Assembly: GCF_001983935.1 (NCBI RefSeq)
Contig: NZ_CP017641.1
Span: 3,782,001 to 3,846,000 of the forward strand
DNA from: Fuerstiella marisgermanici
Lineage (GTDB): Bacteria; Planctomycetota; Planctomycetia; Planctomycetales; Planctomycetaceae
DNA: 64,000 bases
Reading direction: 5' to 3'
How positions within the stretch are numbered: the first letter of the stretch is position 1; each line of letters begins with the position of its first letter. The position numbers and the translations under genes were made by a program. Of the stretch, positions 38,629 through 49,284 are shown piece after piece. The notes under the pieces were generated by a model, which did not search any database, was not told the DNA's origin, and worked only from the letters and a program-made list of their open reading frames with translations.

Positions 38629-39927
38629 TCATGACCGAATTAACGACGAAGGCATTTCCACTGGCGTTTGGGAGTCGTGCTCCTGACAGCAAATAGCCGC
38701 TTCTGCTGCATTCGTCGACACTCTTGGTTGTGTGCGCCCCTTGAGCCGACTGAGCCTTGCAGTGACCAGATGCGGGATTGTTCTGTGCGTGTCGGGGTTT
38801 GAATCCGGAATGGAAATGCGGACGACTCCGTTGCCGTAGGTTGTTGCTGAAATTCGGTGTTCTGCCAACAACTGACGAAGCCTATGTTTCGGGAACCTGC
38901 GGATGGATAATTCTGCGGATTGAATCAGGATGATGTTTGAGCGAAGACACCGAGGCAGAGTCAAGATTCGCCAGCCCGGGCATCGTTTCAACCGGGTTCG
39001 GCATTCGCAGGCTTCATTTCCTGAACGGGGTCTTGACGAACGTGACACCAGATCCGTCACGGCACCTTGTGCCGTTAACAACGGTGTCACGTTAACGGTT
39101 TCCATTGGCCCCTTCCCCAAGGCAGTCGCGTCGCAAAACTGAAACAACGGGTCACGAGAGAGTTCTTTGCGAAATCGTGTGCCGTCCCGCTGTCTTGCAA
39201 AACCCACGCCCAGCGGCAGGTAGGACCGGACCCACTTGTGGCAGCCGCCGAAAGTGAAATCGGCGAGGTGGGTCCAGTCGCCGGTGTTGATGTGGCCGTA
39301 AGCCTGGGACGCGTCGATGACGGTGCGAACGTTCGTCGAACTGTCCGACAATGACCGCAGAATGGTTGGCAGCGGCAGACGGATGCCGGTGTGCGTGACG
39401 GCCGGCAGAAAGAGGCTGTCACTCCGGTTTCGACGGACGTATTTCAGAATCTCCCTGGCGACATCATCAGCAGTGAATCCCTGTTGCCAGATTCGCTTGC
39501 GTAGCGGCAAGAGCGATAGTCTGATTCTGCGAAGACGTGCGAAACTCTGGATCCATTTTCGGTAGGGCGGCCAGGTGAGATCAGTGAGCAGCAGATGACG
39601 TCGGCCGGCGGCAACGAGAGAACGGATCCCCGACTGCATCAGGCTGGTCGTGCGACTGGCCAGCAGGACTTTCGTGTCGGAAGTGGTGTTCTCAGCAAAG
39701 GTTTGACGAAGCTGTTGTTTAAGGCCTTCAATACCGGGCCAGCGAGTAAGTTCAGGGAATCGCTGAGGAATCTCGGGTGTCGCGGTGACTCCTTCAAACA
39801 GGAATTGTTCGGTGTACAGGCTGGAAGGGTCTTCGGCCATCAGGCGGACGAAGTCGCACTGCATTTTCAGCGCTGTTGGGGACATCTGTCCCAACCGTGC
39901 TGTATCGAGATACAGCATCGTCGACAT
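38629..39927 (-). CDS. Class V aminotransferase-like PLP-dependent enzyme
   Basis: A 432-residue protein from ATG 39927, with AAAGGAGC upstream. The fold-type I signature includes VIDASQAYGHI (the Asp pairs with the cofactor nitrogen) and the Schiff-base lysine in FGGCHKWV. The N-terminal part resembles cysteine desulfurase/aminotransferase V proteins that act on small amino substrates. The specific substrate cannot be told. The stretch of about 295-340 (Arg/Pro-rich) is less family-like and could hide compensated frameshifts. The gene stands alone between the defence-type operon and the DUF932 operon. Confidence 0.78.
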   Translation of the reverse strand: MSTMLYLDTARLGQMSPTALKMQCDFVRLMAEDPSSLYTEQFLFEGVTATPEIPQRFPELTRWPGIEGLKQQLRQTFAENTTSDTKVLLASRTTSLMQSGIRSLVAAGRRHLLLTDLTWPPYRKWIQSFARLRRIRLSLLPLRKRIWQQGFTADDVAREILKYVRRNRSDSLFLPAVTHTGIRLPLPTILRSLSDSSTNVRTVIDASQAYGHINTGDWTHLADFTFGGCHKWVRSYLPLGVGFARQRDGTRFRKELSRDPLFQFCDATALGKGPMETVNVTPLLTAQGAVTDLVSRSSRPRSGNEACECRTRLKRCPGWRILTLPRCLRSNIILIQSAELSIRRFPKHRLRQLLAEHRISATTYGNGVVRISIPDSNPDTHRTIPHLVTARLSRLKGRTQPRVSTNAAEAAICCQEHDSQTPVEMPSSLIRS

Positions 39928-40186
39928 GCGAACCTGCTCCTTTCACGGAGCCGATCGTAGAGCGATCAAAAGTACCGATCCAGGTTTGAGTTCTCAGAAT
40001 CGTTGGGTTTCCGAAAAGATCAGGCGCTTGAAATCACAGGCTGGAGGGAGAACCGCAATTGCCTGGTTTCCTCCTGCTGATGCGGATGCGCAAAGAAATC
40101 GAACTGTGCGAATAGCTGAGAGATGCGGTGGTGCATCTCTCAAAACCTGTTGGCCGTCGTCGTGACAACTAACAGGTTGTCCCGTG

Positions 40187-40459
40187 TTACGAACCTCCTT
40201 TGGCGGAATCCGCTGGCTGACTGTTGTCAAAGATCCAGCTGTGGGCCAGGTCTGAGACCTTCATCACCAATGGCAGGTCATCGCGTCCAAAGCTGGTGCT
40301 GTCTTTCCAGACATCACCGTCCTTGTAGATGCGACTCAGAGTCACGTTATGTCTCGTGCCGTTCTGAGTTTCATTTTCCCAGATGGCGGCGCGAATTCGT
40401 CCCATGCGAATCTCATTGACGGGTCGAGCCTTTCCGTTTGTGTTGGCCATGTCTTCCAT
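40187..40459 (-). CDS. Small conserved accessory-DNA protein (last gene of DUF932 operon)
   Basis: A 90-residue protein, or 87 if the second ATG is used; GGAAAGGA precedes it. The core (MGRIRAAIWENE, SRIYKDG, FGRDDLPLVMKVSDLAHSWI) resembles a small protein family I associate with plasmid-like and phage-like DNA in planctomycetes. Function unknown; a nucleic-acid-binding role is a guess. It lies 24 bp after the preceding gene in the same operon. Confidence 0.75.
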   Translation of the reverse strand: MEDMANTNGKARPVNEIRMGRIRAAIWENETQNGTRHNVTLSRIYKDGDVWKDSTSFGRDDLPLVMKVSDLAHSWIFDNSQPADSAKGGS

Positions 40460-40483
40460 TTCCTTTCCTCATTTTTGTTTTGG

Positions 40484-40813
40484 TCAATCAAATAAAACGA
40501 CAGCGAACGATTCGTTGCTGAACTCATCCCAGTGCGGCGGTTCTGCCAGGTCGGGTGAGAAACAACACACGCGGTCACGTTCGCTGTCACGAACCGAACC
40601 GTGAAAAATCTCCCACGTTCGGTAGTACATGCCTCCGTAGTAAACGGAGCCATCGACGATGCGCAGCGTCCAGGCTTCCCCACATCGAATGTCACGACCC
40701 TCGTTCTCGTGAATCGTGAGAAACGGTCCGAACACAGGTCCGTCGACTTCGCGTTCGCTTTCTGTGGTCAGCAGGTTGTGGCGTCCGTGCCGCAACCGTA
40801 TCCATGCCATCAT
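40484..40813 (-). CDS. Hypothetical protein of DUF932 operon
   Basis: A 109-residue protein whose start overlaps the stop of the upstream gene (ATGA, 40810-40813), so the two are probably coupled. It is rich in aromatic residues and acidic overall, with no signal peptide or recognised domain. Confidence 0.68.
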   Translation of the reverse strand: MMAWIRLRHGRHNLLTTESEREVDGPVFGPFLTIHENEGRDIRCGEAWTLRIVDGSVYYGGMYYRTWEIFHGSVRDSERDRVCCFSPDLAEPPHWDEFSNESFAVVLFD

Positions 40814-41256
40814 TGTGCCCTCCGTTGCACGGCCACCTCCGTGTCATGTTCATCCCACGGTGGAGACGGAACATGATCCGGGCAGTAGCCAAGAAAGTTC
40901 TCCAGCGGCAGGTCCGGACGAAACTCAATTCCGGTCCAGCCGGCGGCCGCTGCCTCTTCATACGACGCCGGTGAACCAGCATCGCATTCGAAGCAGGACA
41001 CACTGAACGGAACCCTTTTCGGAATTCCGTTCGGTGACTGCAACACCTGCCATGCCATTTGCAATGCGAATTCACAGACCGCTCGCACCACAGCACGGTT
41101 CCACATCGGCCCCATGCTTTGTTGCGGCAACACGTCGGGTGGAAATCCGCCTCTGGCCATCCAGTGCTTCAGGTCCTTCGCCGCAGCCTGCAGCTCTTCC
41201 CAGTCATGGTCCTTCCACGCTTCCAGCAGTCTTGTCCATGTCGCTTGCGGATCCAT
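40810..41256 (-). CDS. Hypothetical protein of DUF932 operon
   Basis: A 148-residue protein from ATG 41256, which follows the DUF932 stop after a single base (TGA C ATG); a TTG at 41274 would add six residues. It is Trp- and Pro-rich, with a Cys pair in the middle (SVSCFECDAG), and I do not recognise it. The tight spacing places it in one operon with both neighbours. Confidence 0.68.
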   Translation of the reverse strand: MDPQATWTRLLEAWKDHDWEELQAAAKDLKHWMARGGFPPDVLPQQSMGPMWNRAVVRAVCEFALQMAWQVLQSPNGIPKRVPFSVSCFECDAGSPASYEEAAAAGWTGIEFRPDLPLENFLGYCPDHVPSPPWDEHDTEVAVQRRAQ

Positions 41257-41257
41257 G

Positions 41258-42283
41258 TCACACCGCCAGTCCAAGCAGACTGCCGATCCGACTGTCCAGC
41301 TCCGCTCGATCGCCGGCGTAGCGCACGTTCTGCGACAGCCGGGTCAGCGCATCCACAATCGAGAAGATCGTAAAACTGCCCTGCACCGCTGCCATTTCCA
41401 GAGCCGTATCGATCAGGTGACGAGGAATGCGACGTTCGGTCAGCTGTTTGGCGACATCCTCTGAGCAATCACCCAGTTTCGTCGACATGGCATTCCGCAG
41501 CGTGTTGACGAATCCGTCGCGACGCTGATCACGCTTCCTCGCCAGCTCATCAATGATGCGGCGAATCTCGTCCAGACTATCGTGCACGCGAGCGGTATGC
41601 TTGCGTGTGAACTCAACGACTTCGACCGCATCCCACACGATGTGATTGGCACAGACTTTCTGAAACCAGAACGTCTGAATCCCCAGCGAACGGCGTCCGA
41701 CTTCAGAGTTCCAAATGAAAAACCCGGGAGCAAACGCTTCACCTTCAAGTTCACACCAGCCGAGCGGATCGATCAGGAACGCGAACATGTCCTGTTCACC
41801 GCAGTAGAGACCCGTCCCACCAGAAAAACTTTTCTGGGGCGGACGGAAATCCACTGCCGTTTCCTTCACCACATCCAGCAGGTCGGCATTCCACAATCGT
41901 GTGTAGGAAACACCATGCAGCGAACGCGCCGTGCTGCCGGTGGACAGCACCTGCACCGGCTTCTGCGAACGCGGCAGAGTTTCCTGCACGACTTTGCTGG
42001 CAGTATCCGGCGACAGACGATTCAGCGTCTCTTTCCGAACACCAGAGAGGCGGCAGAGCTGACTGAAAGACCAGTCATTCAGGCCCACATCTCCTTCCCC
42101 TTCGACAGTCAGCTGAATGGAGTTGCCGGTGACGTGAGGTTCCAGCTTCTGTGGCAGCTGCCAGCAGTCGCGGGAAGCATCACGTTCCGTGCAACAATGA
42201 TCATAAAGATCGTCGAAGGTTTCGAAGCATTCGTCCGCCGCGCGGCGGAACAGTTCGTCATGGGCCCGTTTCAGTTCGACCAT
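41258..42283 (-). CDS. DUF932-family (phage/plasmid-like) protein
   Basis: A 341-residue protein. The start is ATG 42283, chosen because AGGAGAAG lies just upstream and the family-like sequence begins there (MVELKRAHDELFRRA). The body matches the DUF932 pattern: an N-terminal part with LNRLSPDTA, the central RSLHGVSYTRLWNADLL block, GLYCGEQDMFAFL, then FIWNSEVGRRSLGIQTFWF and a helical C-terminus. DUF932 proteins occur on plasmids, phages and integrative elements. Their biochemical role is not established. First gene of a four-gene operon on the minus strand. Confidence 0.85.
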   Translation of the reverse strand: MVELKRAHDELFRRAADECFETFDDLYDHCCTERDASRDCWQLPQKLEPHVTGNSIQLTVEGEGDVGLNDWSFSQLCRLSGVRKETLNRLSPDTASKVVQETLPRSQKPVQVLSTGSTARSLHGVSYTRLWNADLLDVVKETAVDFRPPQKSFSGGTGLYCGEQDMFAFLIDPLGWCELEGEAFAPGFFIWNSEVGRRSLGIQTFWFQKVCANHIVWDAVEVVEFTRKHTARVHDSLDEIRRIIDELARKRDQRRDGFVNTLRNAMSTKLGDCSEDVAKQLTERRIPRHLIDTALEMAAVQGSFTIFSIVDALTRLSQNVRYAGDRAELDSRIGSLLGLAV

Positions 42284-42526
42284 TGCATCTTCTCCTTTCG
42301 CCAGTACCGAAGTACTGATTACAGAACCGAATTGACCGGGAGCACAGTGCTCACAGTCGAATCGATCCTGCGCGAAAGCAGCAGACATCAACCTTTGTTG
42401 CGGCTCGTGCTGAGCTGCAACGATCAAACCTCATCATGCACCACCGCCCCTCGGACCCCTGTGGGCTCCGGGAGGCAGATAAATCTGCGGGGCGAACTCA
42501 TATTCGTCGTGGCAAAGAACGGCTTG

Positions 42527-42769
42527 ATGAAGAGTAAACTACCACCTTCCACGGAATGCGTCACGCTCCGCGCCTTTCTCAGAGGGCTCTCAGAACGAAT
42601 GCACGGAATTGAAATCTTTTCGATCTCAAATTGTCATATTCTTGAGCCCGTGCACTCGTCACAACCGCCCACAGGCCGACGCGACTTGCACCTGCAAATC
42701 ATCGACGACCCGCACTTTCGGAAGACAACGGAAGATACGGTGCTGGACATTGTTGCTGCGATTATGTGA
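42527..42769 (+). CDS. Possible small protein, unknown
   Basis: An 80-residue reading from ATG 42527 with natural-looking composition (LRAFLRGLSERMHGIEIF, then DDPHFRKTTEDTVLDIVAAIM). A longer open frame upstream is only the antisense of the DUF932 gene. The ribosome site is weak. Function unknown. Confidence 0.4.
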   Translation: MKSKLPPSTECVTLRAFLRGLSERMHGIEIFSISNCHILEPVHSSQPPTGRRDLHLQIIDDPHFRKTTEDTVLDIVAAIM

Positions 42770-43262: not shown

Positions 43263-43415
43263 TCACACCGAGATGCGTTCCACAAGATTCCGAGTCACTT
43301 TCTGCTGTCGCCTGTCATAAAGACGCGTGGTGCGAGGATCACTGTGCCCAGCCAGAAACTGCACGGATTCCAGCGAGATGCCCTGACTCAGCAAATCCGT
43401 AACCGCCATCACCCG
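43263..43415 (-). pseudogene. 3' part of the interrupted tyrosine recombinase
   Basis: This fragment encodes the last 50 codons, from the Arg of HSFR through VMAVTDLLSQGISLES, the GHSDPRTTRLYDRR box with the catalytic Tyr, to the stop at 43263. It joins in frame to the 5' part at 48186, on the far side of the 4.77-kb element. Confidence 0.85.
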
Positions 43416-43416
43416 G

Positions 43417-43436
43417 TTATGTGGTCGACCACATAA
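43417..43436. repeat. Perfect 20-bp palindrome at the element left border
   Basis: TTATGTGGTCGACCACATAA is identical to its own reverse complement. It is built from the same TTATGTGG box found in the inverted repeats and is present only at the left border. It could be a recombinase binding or crossover site. Confidence 0.85.
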
Positions 43437-43441
43437 GCGTG

Positions 43442-43524
43442 TTTATGTGGCCACCAGCGTTATGTGGTGTTGGGTTCGTTGCCCAGTGAGATTGGCGGTG
43501 ACTCGTTGATCGAACGCCACATAA
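43442..43524. repeat. Left inverted end of the RIT-like element
   Basis: The 26-base outer block 43442-43467 (TTTATGTGGCCACC then AGCGTTATGTGG) matches the right end with one difference. A further inverted box CCACATAA lies at 43517-43524, about 50 bp inside. Confidence 0.85.
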
Positions 43525-43534
43525 TTTTTCCCTG

Positions 43535-44557
43535 TCAGAGGTTGCTGAGGAATTCCATCAATCCCTTGTCGTCGCGCCAGGGTTGGTGAGGCTTGTCGTC
43601 CTGAATTTCGCAGCTGGCCAGAGCCTTGGTCTTCATTTCCAGATCGACTTCAGCGTAAATGTTCGTAGTTGTGATGGAGACGTGCCCCAGCCAGGCTCGA
43701 ATGGTGTTGATGTCCACGCCCGCGCGGAGGAGGTGCGTGGCTGTGGTATGGCGAATGACATGTGGGCTGACTCGCTTGTTGGCCATTGAAGGCAATTGCT
43801 GAGTGATTTATGCTGCGTGTCGTTCAACCAATGTGTGAATGCCGAATCGCGTCAATGGTTGTCCGGTCCGGTTCAGGAAGACATTTTCAGTCGAGTCTCG
43901 ACTGCTCACCAACGGAGACAGTTCGTTCACGGTTCTGGTCCACAACGGACAGCGACGCTGCTTGTTTCCTTTGCCATGAATCAGGACCGAGGACGCATCC
44001 CGATTTGGCGTTGCTGCCAGGTCGAGATCCTTGATCCGCACGTGGGCCACTTCATCGGCTCGCGCGCCCGTGTTGTACAGGAACAGTAACAAGGCGTGAT
44101 CGCGGCATCCGAGCTTCGTACTCCGATCTGGCGCTTCCAATAGCGCATCCATTTCGGCCTTCTCCAGGTAGGTCATCAGTGATCGCGGCGCTTTCTTGAA
44201 GAGGATCGTTCGAACCTCCCCGCACCATTGAACATGTTCCGGGCTGCGCATGCCGATGAAACGGGCCAACGAGTGAATCGCGGCCAATCGCTGGTTGCGT
44301 GTCGCCACGCTGCATTCGCGTTTCACTTCTATGTCTTGCAGGAACTCTCGAATGTGATCAGCCGAGAGATCCTCGACGCTCAGTTGGTCGATTGGCTTGC
44401 CAAGTCGACTGACGGAAAAGGGCAACAGCAGGCGGAGCGTGTCGCGGTAACTTTGCTGTGTGTTTCGGGCCAGATTACGTTCTCCCACGAGATGTTCCAA
44501 CAGGAAGCGTTTTACCCACGGGCCAAGCAACGCTGTGTCTTTCGCTTTCTTCTTCAT
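43535..44557 (-). pseudogene. Third trio tyrosine recombinase with an in-frame stop
   Basis: ATG 44557 overlaps the preceding stop (ATGA) and is preceded by GGAGG. The frame is 340 codons long but has a TAA at 43810-43808 after 249 codons. The first piece has the N-terminal SAM-like domain and catalytic Arg (NTGARADEVA). The second piece, after the stop, carries HVIRHT (HxxR), WLGH and the catalytic Tyr (TNIYAEVD). The frame is unchanged across the stop. A nonsense mutation is the simplest reading, and the truncated protein would lack the nucleophile. Readthrough or a sequence error cannot be excluded. Confidence 0.82.
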
Positions 44558-45516
44558 GGTTGACCTCCAGTATGATCGGTTTTCGAATAGCATTCGAATC
44601 GGGCATTCGCTTCCTGCAGCAGGTCAGGTGTCATGCTGAGATAGATCTGCGTATCCTCCAGGTGGGCATGTCCCAGATAGACCGACAGTTGGTAGACCAG
44701 CTTCTGTACGTCCATCCCCTGCTGATACCAGGACGTTAAGCGGTGGACGGCGAACGTATGGCGCAGATCATGCAGACGCGGTTGGTAGCTGGCTCCATCG
44801 GATCGGCGAATGCCCGCTTGCTCGCGAAGCCGCCGGAAGTGAGCCTGAAGCGTGTTCAGAACCACGCGGGTCCCCTCACGCGTGGTAAAAAAGGGTGGCA
44901 CTTCGCCAGAGACTGAAATGGGTGGGATACGATTGCTGACGTAATCCGTCAGAGCCTGATGTAGTTGCGGCCCAAAGGGAACCAGTCTCGATTTGTGAAA
45001 TTTCGTCAGGCGAATGACGAGCAGGGATTCATTGAAGTCGACATCTTCGGAGTTCAATCGAACGATCTCACCAGCGCGCAGTCCGGTTCCATAGAGCAGC
45101 AACAATATGGTGCGAAACGTAAGAGCATCGAAGGAACTCACTCCGCGCTGGTAGCACCTGGCAGTTTCAAGAAGTCGATGCAGCTCCTCATGTGAGTAAA
45201 TGTAGGGAACAAATGACGGGACCCGTTTCGCGATCTGGTCGGGCATTGGGGAGTGGGTGATATGATCCCGGCTTTTCGCAAAATGAAAGAAGCCGTTGAT
45301 CGTCGTGTACTTGGTACGCCAAGTGGTTGTCAGGGCGTCAGTTCCGGCAATGAAGGCAGCGATCTGCTCAGTCCGCACTTCGTCAACGGTCGCATCAGCG
45401 CCAACGGAGCGTGCAAACGCCCGAAGGATGAATGCATTGTTGACGAAACGTTCTCCGAGTGTTCGCCGGTATCTGATGTAGCGTTCGATAAGAGCTGCCA
45501 GATTCATCGAGTTCAT
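44554..45516 (-). CDS. Second trio tyrosine recombinase
   Basis: A 320-residue integrase-family protein. The N-terminal core-binding domain covers about residues 1-95. The catalytic domain has Arg in GTGLRAGEIVRL, HDLRHT (HxxR), YLGHAHLEDTQIYL with the catalytic Tyr, and a Lys in the beta-hairpin LTKFHKSRLVPFG. It appears intact. Both ends overlap the neighbouring recombinase genes by ATGA, so the three are probably translated together. The natural partner proteins cut and rejoin DNA by a Tyr-linked intermediate. Confidence 0.92.
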   Translation of the reverse strand: MNSMNLAALIERYIRYRRTLGERFVNNAFILRAFARSVGADATVDEVRTEQIAAFIAGTDALTTTWRTKYTTINGFFHFAKSRDHITHSPMPDQIAKRVPSFVPYIYSHEELHRLLETARCYQRGVSSFDALTFRTILLLLYGTGLRAGEIVRLNSEDVDFNESLLVIRLTKFHKSRLVPFGPQLHQALTDYVSNRIPPISVSGEVPPFFTTREGTRVVLNTLQAHFRRLREQAGIRRSDGASYQPRLHDLRHTFAVHRLTSWYQQGMDVQKLVYQLSVYLGHAHLEDTQIYLSMTPDLLQEANARFECYSKTDHTGGQP

Positions 45517-46778
45517 AGCACTCCTCCCAGATCAAAGTCGGCAACCTGCCGCAGTGCCGCGAGATCGACTTTGGCGTAGATCCGAGTCGTGTCGGGATGC
45601 CTGTGTCCCAGATGATCGCCGATTTCTTTCAGCGAGAGCCCCTGCTGCAGAAGGCGCATCGCACAGGCATGGCGTAAGCTGTGTGAGCCATAGTGTGGCA
45701 ATTGAAGCCCCAGGGCGTGCAGGCGGCGACTGACGACTGCTCCAACGGAGCCGTGAGCCAGTGGACGAAACGGTGGGCGAACAGTCAGAAAGACTTCTCG
45801 ATGAACTGAGCGCGGGCGGACTGACTGGAGATAACGAAGGACGGAATCGCCAACCTGCCGTGTCAACGGATAGACGTGCGTGGACTGCGTCTTGCCACGA
45901 TGGACCGTCAGCCGCTCATGCTCCCAACTGAAATTCTCCAACTGCAGACAACGAACTTCGCCAGCGCGCAGGCCGTAGATGGCCAGCAGCATTAAGATGG
46001 CGCGGTCCCGAATCTGGGCAGGCTGATCTCCTTCAACACTTGCGAGTATTTTCTGAACGTCTGCCCACGCCGGGCCGGCGGGAATGGACTCCTGCGAATA
46101 GACGCGAGGCCCTCTGATGCCGTCAGCAAGGCCACTTTGGCACCAACGTCGAGATTCAGCAAAAGCAAAGAAAGAACGCAGTTGGCAAGCCAGATTCTTC
46201 ACGGTAGTGCGTGCGTAATGACCCTGAGCAATCTGTTTGACAATGGCTGAATCGATCTGAGAAATGTTCACGCAGTGAAGCGGACTGCTGTTCGAAGTGA
46301 CCTTCTCCAGAAATCGTTCAACGGTATCGCAGCGTTCACTGACAGTCCGGGGATTCAAGCCTTTCTCCTGCAGCAGGAAATTCGCAAATTCGTCGAGCTG
46401 ATCAGCAAAACGACTTGGCGCGGGCGTCGGCAGTTGCAGTCGCCCCATGAATTTGAGCCATGAGCAGACATGACGTAAGAACTCAATTCGCGAAGAACGT
46501 CGGCCCGAAATCTTTCTCATATTCGGACATGGGGATATTCGCTTTGCCCAAAGCTCTGCCTGCTGTTCAACTTCAGCGCGAGCAATAGGTTCACCGGGAC
46601 GATCTGCCAATCGGAGATACTCCGTGCAGGCCAACAGATAGTACGCCAGCACTCGCAGCCCGTTACGACCAATTCCCTCATTCGCACGATGACACAAGTA
46701 ACGTCTGCGTTCTGCGGCCAGAGGGCCGTCCAAGTGCGGCTGCAACGCATGTGGAAACCGAAAAAGTTGTTCAAACAT
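45513..46778 (-). CDS. First trio tyrosine recombinase
   Basis: A 421-residue protein. ATG 46778 is preceded by GGAGG. An N-terminal extension of about 110 residues precedes the SAM-like binding domain. The catalytic region shows YGLRAGEVRCL, a Lys in RGKTQSTHVYPL, SHSLRHACA (HxxR), HLGHRHPDTTRIYAKVD (Tyr). All catalytic residues are present. Longest and first of the three coupled genes, as expected for the first gene of recombinase-in-trio elements. Confidence 0.92.
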   Translation of the reverse strand: MFEQLFRFPHALQPHLDGPLAAERRRYLCHRANEGIGRNGLRVLAYYLLACTEYLRLADRPGEPIARAEVEQQAELWAKRISPCPNMRKISGRRSSRIEFLRHVCSWLKFMGRLQLPTPAPSRFADQLDEFANFLLQEKGLNPRTVSERCDTVERFLEKVTSNSSPLHCVNISQIDSAIVKQIAQGHYARTTVKNLACQLRSFFAFAESRRWCQSGLADGIRGPRVYSQESIPAGPAWADVQKILASVEGDQPAQIRDRAILMLLAIYGLRAGEVRCLQLENFSWEHERLTVHRGKTQSTHVYPLTRQVGDSVLRYLQSVRPRSVHREVFLTVRPPFRPLAHGSVGAVVSRRLHALGLQLPHYGSHSLRHACAMRLLQQGLSLKEIGDHLGHRHPDTTRIYAKVDLAALRQVADFDLGGVL

Positions 46779-47037
46779 TTTGGAACCTCCAAAGCTGTGA
46801 AACTAGGAGGCTCACTCTAAACCTGCCTCCTGACGAATGATCCAGATGTCGTCTGGTTGCCTTGAAGAATTCGCGGTCCGCGGCCCCGCGATCCTGAATA
46901 GTGAATCCGGTCAAAATATTCGTGGCCTCCCAAACGGACCTGCTTCTTCGGTTACAGGTCGAGAGCAGCCGGAAGACCATTCCATTGGCGTTGCAAAAGC
47001 TCCTTTTTGAAACACCAGAGTTGTGGCATGATGACGC

Positions 47038-48042
47038 ATGGACAAGGATCGATTCCCACAGCCTTATCATGAGAAATCGCCGGACGATTCCGGCAGCGAA
47101 TTGCTGGTGGTTTCTTCCGCCCACACACCGGCACTGATTCGGAATGCGGGTGAGCAGGCGCAACGCCGATTTCTGGAATTCTTCACGGCACACATCCGCA
47201 ATCCCGGAACACGAGCTGTGTATGGTCGAGCTGTTGCGAGGTTCTGTGACTGGTGTGAGCGGCAGCATGTTGAACTGCTCGACGTTTCACCGTTCGTAGT
47301 GGCGGCCTACATTGAACAGTTGACTCAGCAGCGGAGTGCTCCGACCGTCAAGTTGCATCTGGCGGCGATTCGAATGCTTTTCGACTGGCTGGTGGTCGGT
47401 CAGGTGCTGCCGCTGAATCCGGCAGCATCCGTTCGTGGCCCGAAACACGTCGTCACCACCGGAAAGACGCCCGTGCTCACCGCCATCGCAGCGCGAGAAC
47501 TCCTCGACACTATTGACTGCACAAGGATCGTCGGATTGCGGGACCGGGCTTTGATTGGCCTGATGGTCTACAGCTTCGCTCGCGTGTCTGCCGCCATTGG
47601 AATGAATGTTGCCGACTACTATCCACAGGGACGACGAATGAGGTTTCGCCTGCATGAAAAGGGCGGCAAACATCACGAAGTTCCCGCACATCACAATGCA
47701 GAAGAGTATCTGGACGCCTATCTGCACGAAGCGGGAATTGCTGACGAAAAGAAGGGGCCACTGTTTCGGACGGTCTCACGACACCGTCAGCTCACCGACC
47801 GCCGCATGCACAGAGCGGACGTTCTGAGAATGATCAAGCGACGTGCCGTCAAAGCGGGGCTGCCGGAGCACATCTGCTGCCACACGTTTCGAGCAACAGG
47901 CATCACGGCCTACCTGGAAAATGGCGGTTCGCTGGAACACGCTCAAAGAATCGCTGCTCACAACTCAGTGCGGACGACGAAACTCTACGATCGCACCAGC
48001 GACGCGGTAAGTCTTGACGAGATTGAACGCATCATCATCTAA
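47038..48042 (+). CDS. Fourth tyrosine recombinase, divergent from the trio
   Basis: A 334-residue protein on the plus strand, transcribed away from the trio across a 259-bp gap. The core-binding domain contains FFTAHIRNPGTRAVYGRAVARF. Catalytic motifs: Arg in SFARVSAAIG, Lys in LHEKGGKHHEVPAHHN, CHTFRATG (HxxR), AAHNSVRTTKLYDRT (Tyr). It looks intact. It is a paralogue of the interrupted host recombinase at 48186-49058 (similar N-terminal and catalytic motifs). That similarity suggests it may act on the same kind of site (inference). Confidence 0.9.
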   Translation: MDKDRFPQPYHEKSPDDSGSELLVVSSAHTPALIRNAGEQAQRRFLEFFTAHIRNPGTRAVYGRAVARFCDWCERQHVELLDVSPFVVAAYIEQLTQQRSAPTVKLHLAAIRMLFDWLVVGQVLPLNPAASVRGPKHVVTTGKTPVLTAIAARELLDTIDCTRIVGLRDRALIGLMVYSFARVSAAIGMNVADYYPQGRRMRFRLHEKGGKHHEVPAHHNAEEYLDAYLHEAGIADEKKGPLFRTVSRHRQLTDRRMHRADVLRMIKRRAVKAGLPEHICCHTFRATGITAYLENGGSLEHAQRIAAHNSVRTTKLYDRTSDAVSLDEIERIII

Positions 48043-48100
48043 ATCAGAGACTCAAAATTGTCTCACCTCCATCGAAACTCTCGGCACATCGTTGGTTCAC

Positions 48101-48184
48101 TTATGTGGCGCAGAATGGCACGAAACCACGAATCTCGCCAGAGAAAAACCAACGAAGGCCACATAACGCCGGTGGCCACATAAA
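48101..48184. repeat. Right inverted end of the RIT-like element
   Basis: The block 48159-48184 (CCACATAACGCCGGTGGCC then ACATAAA) is the reverse complement of 43442-43467 with one mismatch. The inner box TTATGTGG at 48101-48108 mirrors CCACATAA at the left end with nearly the same spacing (about 50 bp). Confidence 0.85.
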
Positions 48185-48185
48185 C

Positions 48186-49058
48186 GCGGAACGAATGCGG
48201 AGAATAGTGATTCGGCAATTCAGCATCTGCCAATCGCCTTTTCAGCATGCACCGGACGTCGGCCGCTGTCATTGCGGAAGTCGTCAGTCGTTTCGTTTTT
48301 CCGATGGCTGTCCGTAGCAACGCATGTCCCGGATCTGTGCCGCTCAGTCGAACGAGGTAGGCATTAATAAACTCGACCAGCTCATAGCGGATCGGAATGC
48401 TGCGTACCTTTCCCCTCTTTTCGTGCAACTGGAGCGTTGGCTGGGTTGCATGAATCCGCAAGTCCGCGATACGCAGTTTTACGATCGCCCCGACGCGGGC
48501 CGCTGTGAATGCCAGTAAAGCGATCACCAACCGATCTCGAAGCCCAACCAAATGCGAAACGTCAATCGACTTGATTAACTTCCGAACTTCCGTCGGCGGA
48601 ATCTCTATCGTCTTTCCTTCTGACGACGACGTCCGTTCACCGCGAACGGTTAAGGCCGGGTTAAGCACGATCACGTGGCGATTCACCATACGGTCAAAGA
48701 AATGCCTCAGCGCCGACAGGTGTAATTTCTTCGTTGTCGACGATACGTCAAGCTGATCGAAATATCGCCCAACGTGAGCGGGCGTGATCATCGCCAAAGT
48801 CTGAACATCTGATTGCACAAAGCTCAGAAACCGCCCCACCGCCTGTCGATAGGCCCGACGCGTATGGGGGTTACGAATATCCGCATGAAAGAACTCGTCA
48901 ACCGCAAACGCCGCCGCGGCCCCTGAGTTCGCCAACACTTCACAAAACACCAAGCTATCATGCCGACGCTTCGGCACGCTCAGCAATTGCCCTTTCGAAT
49001 CACCACTTCCTTGACTCGGCAAGCAGTTCCTCGCTACCTCAAACAAATCCTCGCTCAT
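48186..49058 (-). pseudogene. 5' part of the interrupted tyrosine recombinase
   Basis: ATG 49058 is preceded by AAGGAAGGGG. The fragment encodes 291 codons: binding domain (ADIRNPHTRRAYRQAVGRFL), catalytic Arg (FTAARVGAIVKL), Lys (LHEKRGKVRSIPI) and SPHSFR, the HxxR motif. After this Arg the reading enters the element end and continues with unrelated residues to 48063. The missing part lies at 43263-43415. The intact gene would encode about 340 residues. Confidence 0.88.
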
Positions 49059-49284
49059 CCCCTTCCTTGGTTGATAACATCACCACCTGCTCGGCCCACC
49101 AAGCATTCCATTCACTCACCCAGCAGCTCAACAATCCACCACCGGCGGCATTCCCACTTTGCCACCGATAATCTCTTTTGTCGACGGTAATGCGGAAACT
49201 CATATGCGCTGTCAACGGCCTGAATGACCGAACTCACATAGCATCCGATATTTCATTTTGGGCGGACCAACGAGTCGCCGGCAA

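Follow-up and report, generated by a model that had tools for sequence, protein, structure and literature searches.

The tyrosine recombinase gene H of Fuerstiella marisgermanici is interrupted, at the Arg codon of its HxxR motif (HSF-R), by positions 43411-48189 of the window, i.e., of the whole 64,000-nucleotide stretch of contig NZ_CP017641.1 that was analyzed. The interrupting DNA is a RIT (recombinase in trio) transposable element integrated in H. According to the available portions of two reports, RITs comprise three coupled tyrosine recombinase genes, A-B-C, with a 28-29 bp inverted repeat and an overlapping palindrome at the ends (PMC3414803, PMC2864759). The window element and its relatives point to a mechanism that we consider likely, though not certain, as a whole: a RIT with a palindromic double core would be inserted at the HxxR codon of H by exchange over a 6-bp spacer. 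The comparison suggests how RITs choose and mark their insertion sites.

H is encoded by the minus strand. It starts at position 49058, and its 5′ part (48190-49058) ends with the Phe codon of H-S-F-R; the remainder, with the GHSDPRTTRLYDRR box, lies at 43410-43263. The 5′ part matches positions 5-131 of the 172-position Pfam Phage_integrase profile, and the 3′ part matches positions 133-169 with a score of 22.8 bits, which is under the cut-off of 27.1. Judging from the coordinates, the halves are in frame once joined through one 6-bp spacer (869 + 6 + 148 = 1023 bp) and code for 340 amino acids followed by a stop codon, as proposed in an earlier note on this DNA, which had described a host recombinase gene split at the HxxR Arg codon. 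The empty site that such a split calls for is present in the same genome. An uninterrupted paralogue of H, L080 (G000:C1, ~8,094 kb), aligns at the DNA level with both flanks, with no break across the junction. DNA identity to L080 is 74% over the 5′ half as far as the junction, while amino acid identity is 71% over the first 290 residues and 93% over the last 53. A search of the plasmid collection returned 120 plasmid records with relatives of L080. The element has broken H at its HxxR codon; H is probably a tyrosine recombinase gene of the plasmid or island type.

The insert measures 4767 bp including a palindrome, P (43417-48183), and has a 6-bp spacer on either side. Its ends form a 30-bp inverted repeat, 93% complementary, whose arms are separated by 4691 nt. 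The earlier note, sound in seeing a RIT-type mobile element with terminal repeats, had given it simple 26-bp ends; in fact, a 20-bp palindrome and a second spacer are added at one of them. Either end contains arms of sequence TTATGTGG, the outer two 9 bp apart and a third inverted and further inside. At the ritA/D end, the outer arm (CCACATAA) is located at 48176-48183, the other arms at 48159-48166 and 48101-48108, and the outer spacer, CCGCGT in gene orientation, at 48184-48189 (minus strand). At the ritC end, the outer arm is at 43443-43450, the next at 43460-43467, and the innermost (CCACATAA) at 43517-43524. This end alone has P (TTATGTGG-TCGA-CCACATAA, 43417-43436) and the additional, inner spacer, ACACGC on the minus strand (43437-43442); its outer spacer, CCGGGT in gene orientation (43411-43416, minus strand), is identical to that of the other end at five of six positions. 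Read towards P, the three window spacers are ACCCGG (outer, beside P), ACACGC (inner, reverse complement), and ACGCGG (other end). The corresponding spacers are GAATTT, GAATAT, and GAATTT in a second RIT of the same genome (L073), and GACCCG at all three places in the RIT of G031 (L075). At up to 3 mismatches, the pattern TTATGTGGCCACCRGCGTTATGTGG occurs in the 8.92-Mb genome only at the two ends of the element (control, 0).

Inside the insert, ritA, ritB, and ritC occupy the minus strand, and a fourth recombinase gene, D, the plus strand. The large frames of the insert are all recombinases with Phage_integrase matches; with H, five tyrosine recombinase genes, in pieces, lie at the locus and match this family (the H 3′ piece below the cut-off). 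PHROGs and NCBIfam matches were largely generic (integrase, recombinase). The trio was assigned by Pfam matches and by homology to other RIT loci, where homologues stand in the same order: ritA (45513-46778, 421 aa), ritB (44554-45516, 320 aa), and ritC (43535-44593, with a likely start at 44557), with an ATGA overlap at both joints. RitA has a single Pfam SAM-like domain at residues 128-210 and an N-terminus with no Pfam match. The trio was taken as whole in the earlier note, by implication; its coupled arrangement with a fourth recombinase stands, but ritC is broken by an in-frame TAA (43808-43810) that precedes the catalytic HxxRH box and Tyr, so that not all three recombinases have a catalytic motif. 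The RitC frames of L075 and L073 are open at this place, and the window frame past the stop retains 80% identity to the L075 RitC. The window copy thus appears to be a decayed, probably defective member of the RIT group. Since ritC is broken, it is probably immobile by itself; help in trans from L073 is possible.

RIT loci for comparison came from a plasmid collection, from a scan of genomes in which a RitB alignment was the query, and from whole genomes. In the plasmid collection, 478 records matched RitB at E ≤ 1e-20, of which eight were retrieved; from the genome scan, the best 80 of at least 372 relatives were kept. A plain inverted-repeat end finder misplaces elements whose inverted repeat runs outward, and a palindrome-anchored test, which looks for P next to an arm and is blind to spacers, was used instead. 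Such outward extension was seen in L097 and L096 (~525 and 407 bp), where it hides the true boundary. P was detected in 44 of 103 tested loci and scored on the ritA side in 19 and on the ritC side in 25. The outer spacer matched the reverse complement of the inner one at a mean of 5.02 of 6 positions (n = 44), and 33 loci scored 5 or 6. Mismatched spacer pairs averaged 1.73 of 6, and none of 10,000 shuffles reached the observed sum (221; shuffle maximum, 110). A second end was not found in eight of the 44 loci, hence n = 36 for the remaining comparisons: the other-end spacer matched the reverse complement of the inner one at a mean of 5.03, and the two outer spacers matched each other at a mean of 5.03, exactly in 17 cases. 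In L109, L161, and L178 the "outer" spacer of the second end is an inner one, because P is present at both ends; without these loci, 15 of 33 outer pairs were exact. Spacers agreed at 94-100% of loci at positions 1-2 and at 67-68% at position 6. There were 41 distinct outer spacers in the 44 loci, which are not all independent (L104 and L105 represent one element, L095 and L188 a single plasmid copy, and L172, L165, and L178 have one common spacer).

Recent insertions were found in Escherichia coli. Eleven records matched the DNA of one trio, and seven contained it whole, at 99.7-100% identity. All seven copies lie inside GACCCG (Asp-Pro codons) of annotated DNA methyltransferase genes, either chromosomal yhdJ or plasmid-borne, and the site is continuous in the intact yhdJ of another E. 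coli strain. P is on the ritA side in four copies and on the ritC side in three, and yet it points towards the 5′ half of the target gene in all seven. The presence of both orientations among near-identical copies fits a circle with two inverted cores. Likewise, two identical copies in G230 have common spacers, TGTGAT and CCAGCA, and carry P at opposite ends. A uniform strand bias was considered and rejected: in L193 the spacer of the earlier site adjoins P, whereas in L105 it is at the opposite end, and we therefore claim no such bias.

To identify the targets, the halves of interrupted frames were searched one by one, and 52 of 58 half-gene references were submitted to Pfam; the remaining six were the window 3′ half (scanned separately), both halves of L100, both of L101, and a short one of L114. 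Phage_integrase was matched by 7 of the 52 halves, from the window, L131 (two), L132 (two), L153, and L161. All seven begin or end at profile positions 130-134 of 172, i.e., at the HxxR codon. Other halves matched IS66 transposase, IstB, the Mu transposase C-terminal domain, the rve integrase core, or serine recombinase, and further ones HU-type DNA-binding protein, MutS domain I, MT-A70, or AAA domains; many of the 52 had no Pfam match. In an exact-register pattern test (76 of 80 flanks, those shorter than 40 bases being left out), HxxR codons were found in five flanks (window, L131, L132, L153, and L156, the last with a recombinase on either side by eye), as against one hit in 24 shifted registers. 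Besides the window element, seven RIT loci lie within HxxR boxes (four in exactly the register tested), and the earlier suggestion of a recombinase gene as an unusual target is not supported. RITs in contigs of several phyla strike the same catalytic codon of tyrosine recombinases, with the proviso that the taxon labels of several contigs are unsure, since they are metagenome bins.

In the five HxxR loci with one P (window, L131, L132, L153, and L156), P is always towards the 3′ half of the gene; L161, with P at both ends, is uninformative. In methyltransferase targets, P is towards the 5′ half not only in the E. coli copies but also in L075, L100, and L101, which were named by eye (the L075 halves had no methyltransferase match in the Pfam scan). 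The orientation of the trio varies within both groups of targets. In two further loci, L133 and L136, recombinase 5′ halves were seen by eye on both sides of the trio, each ending at HxLRH in the same register, as if two RIT-interrupted genes had recombined. In L085, a degraded trio adjoins a recombinase gene of the H family, and similarity is lost at the catalytic Tyr codon; this case is weak, since only one end is visible.

The close agreement of the outer spacer with the reverse-complemented inner spacer points to a circle carrying two inverted cores. Under the mechanism we favor, the ends of the element would join as a circle whose joint reads arm - x - [arm NNNN arm = P] - n - arm. Since n would nearly repeat x in reverse-complement form, two inverted cores would flank P, and either could cross over with a target matching the spacer, chiefly at its first two bases, by tyrosine-recombinase strand exchange over 6 bp. 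Crossing over at one core would leave P at the ritA end, and at the other core, P would remain at the ritC end. The choice of core would thus set the end that carries P, and the trio could insert in both orientations with P on a constant side of the target. A given lineage would stay with one codon motif, which in the window is the Arg codon of HxxR. The insertion, the matching empty site, the arms, P, the spacers, the recurrent targets, and both orientations are visible in the sequences; from them we infer the circle, the exchange of strands, transposition itself, and the roles of RitA, RitB, and RitC. Several observations weigh against the mechanism. In the window, the inner and outer spacers match at only 4 of 6 positions, and in L104 at only 2 of 6. 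The disagreement between L193 and L105 also counts here. The three of 44 loci with P at both ends are not simply explained by a one-P circle. The strict test found no P in 59 of 103 loci, which include eight E. coli loci with an imperfect P and others near contig ends; in L103, P is absent although the ends are visible by eye.

The spacer match could arise differently, if the inner spacer were copied from the outer one through a folded single-stranded hairpin, with x-P-n acting as an arm-spacer-arm site in which base pairing would hold n to reverse complementarity with x. Folded single-stranded sites of this kind are used by the integron attC and by CTX phage. Read from the sequence, x-P-n and the arms could fold into a stem of at most 22 bp closed by a 4-nt loop, and the high scores of the 33 loci are what pairing would yield. 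However, the identical G230 copies carry spacers that would pair at just 2 of 6 positions in L104, and a lineage that always strikes one motif, as the E. coli copies suggest, would acquire matched spacers with no folding. We regard the hairpin as rather unlikely. That no mobile insertion took place, and that an accident of assembly or gene order gathered five recombinase genes, has next to no probability: recombinase genes are many in this genome, but the paralogous empty site and its match at the junction, the inverted ends, the spacer repeats, and the repetition of the target register in unrelated contigs all contradict it.

D (47038-48042, plus strand, 334 aa) is an open frame between ritA and the end of the element, identified by Pfam and divergent from the trio. 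As the earlier note held, it resembles H, in that by sequence it belongs to the same broad family; it is not, however, derived from H. A duplicate of H was ruled out by identities of 36-37% to H as against 65% and 66% to genes in L081 and L082 (relatives at this level occur in its own genome and in two others: L081, L082, and L196). The L081 relative lies near a MobF-type relaxase identified by eye. Neither was D accepted as a usual RIT part, since among 104 loci compared a stretch best matched by D is present in the window only, in keeping with the note's view of a divergent fourth recombinase as unusual. The possibility that all four recombinases function as a single set, D contributing to the transposition machinery of this element, gains from the open frame, its location within the terminal arms, and a GC content (0.57) near that of the trio (0.54-0.56). 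We consider it very improbable, given this restriction to the window, the absence of a trio beside the L081 and L082 genes, the single place per record of the 12 best listed plasmid relatives (57-65% identity), and the length of 56 of 74 elements with a good bounding inverted repeat, 3.15-3.52 kb. Nor is D at all likely to be a replacement that compensates for the destroyed class of recombinase gene. D and L080 are homologous and find largely the same kinds of plasmid (126 records for D at E ≤ 1e-30, the best from Singulisphaera at 65%), but the low identity of D to H makes common sites doubtful, and the cargo of the methyltransferase-targeting E. coli RIT matches nothing in Pfam. The best view of D is that of cargo: a recombinase of plasmid type, apparently gained between ritA and the end. 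The E. coli copies and L103 carry a different gene as cargo, by eye a membrane protein in L103.

Some other recombinase sequences were noted. In another genus, a C-terminal fragment of 39 residues, with 90% identity to D, is located just 3′ of a more distant recombinase gene (L087, 7633-7749). The genome of F. marisgermanici contains a 358-aa tyrosine recombinase in seven listed copies and a 386-aa one in three (e.g., L074, L076, L078, and L079), with equal scores and some divergent pairs; these are perhaps another multi-copy recombinase element. Adjoining H, a 3.4-kb module (39098-42533) is 97-99.8% identical to one adjoining L080 (L080 2-4738), whereas the genes themselves share just 74-82% DNA identity; islands that bear recombinase genes seem to exchange modules with one another. 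A 36-bp stretch 5′ of H (49149-49184) is 94% identical to L080 7101-7136, at the same upstream place and above the conservation of the gene, and is a possible binding or attachment site.

RITs themselves, their inverted repeat with overlapping palindrome, the variability of their ends, and insertions into transposase genes and radC are already known; the printed insertions concern an IS66-family tnpA, the transposase gene of a Tn6049-related transposon, and radC (available text of PMC3414803, PMC2864759). RitA is described in part of another source as having two core-binding domains, and RitC as having an extra C-terminal helix (PMC8138268). The accessible text of PMC3414803 calls movement by three recombinases hard to understand, with ends that vary and do not fit usual binding sites. 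The end anatomy seen here, with its 6-bp spacer repeats, reverse-complement inner spacer, and one-sided P, would explain the variation of the ends and makes the mechanism directly testable, with the near-identical E. coli copies as material. These three features are absent from the RIT descriptions found (PMC3414803, PMC2864759, in part). In the literature searched, neither the double inverted core nor the spacer rule was found described, and the same holds for the constant side of P and the HxxR target, but the principal RIT papers were outside that search and an earlier description is possible. Whether RITs are codon-motif-specific parasites of other mobile DNA is a question on which we are evenly divided. 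On this proposal, a lineage would use a palindromic double attachment site to enter, in either orientation, active-site codons (HxxR in tyrosine recombinases, Asp-Pro in DNA methyltransferases) or transposase genes, with P on a constant side of the target; RITs would thereby inactivate rival recombinases, some carrying a spare of their own.

Known RITs measure ~3.5 kb in the descriptions available, whereas the window element is 4.77 kb, the surplus being D and its surroundings, and differs further by its fourth recombinase, its broken ritC, and a tyrosine recombinase as host gene. Strand-biased circularizing integrative elements (SE), GInt, and Tn554 likewise have several tyrosine recombinases, imperfect inverted ends, a 6-bp footprint, and target specificity (PMC10214605, PMC5385486, in part). 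They differ in their gene sets, which include a non-catalytic recombinase-like protein (the non-catalytic partners being Tfp/GinC and Srap/GinD in SE/GInt), and a palindromic double core is not in their descriptions found. As to plasmid-borne XerC/D-like tyrosine recombinases, L080 matches five planctomycete plasmid genes at 49-53%, and the listed plasmid genes match D at the identities given above; H and D of the window are chromosomal, H serving as the target of a RIT and D as its cargo.

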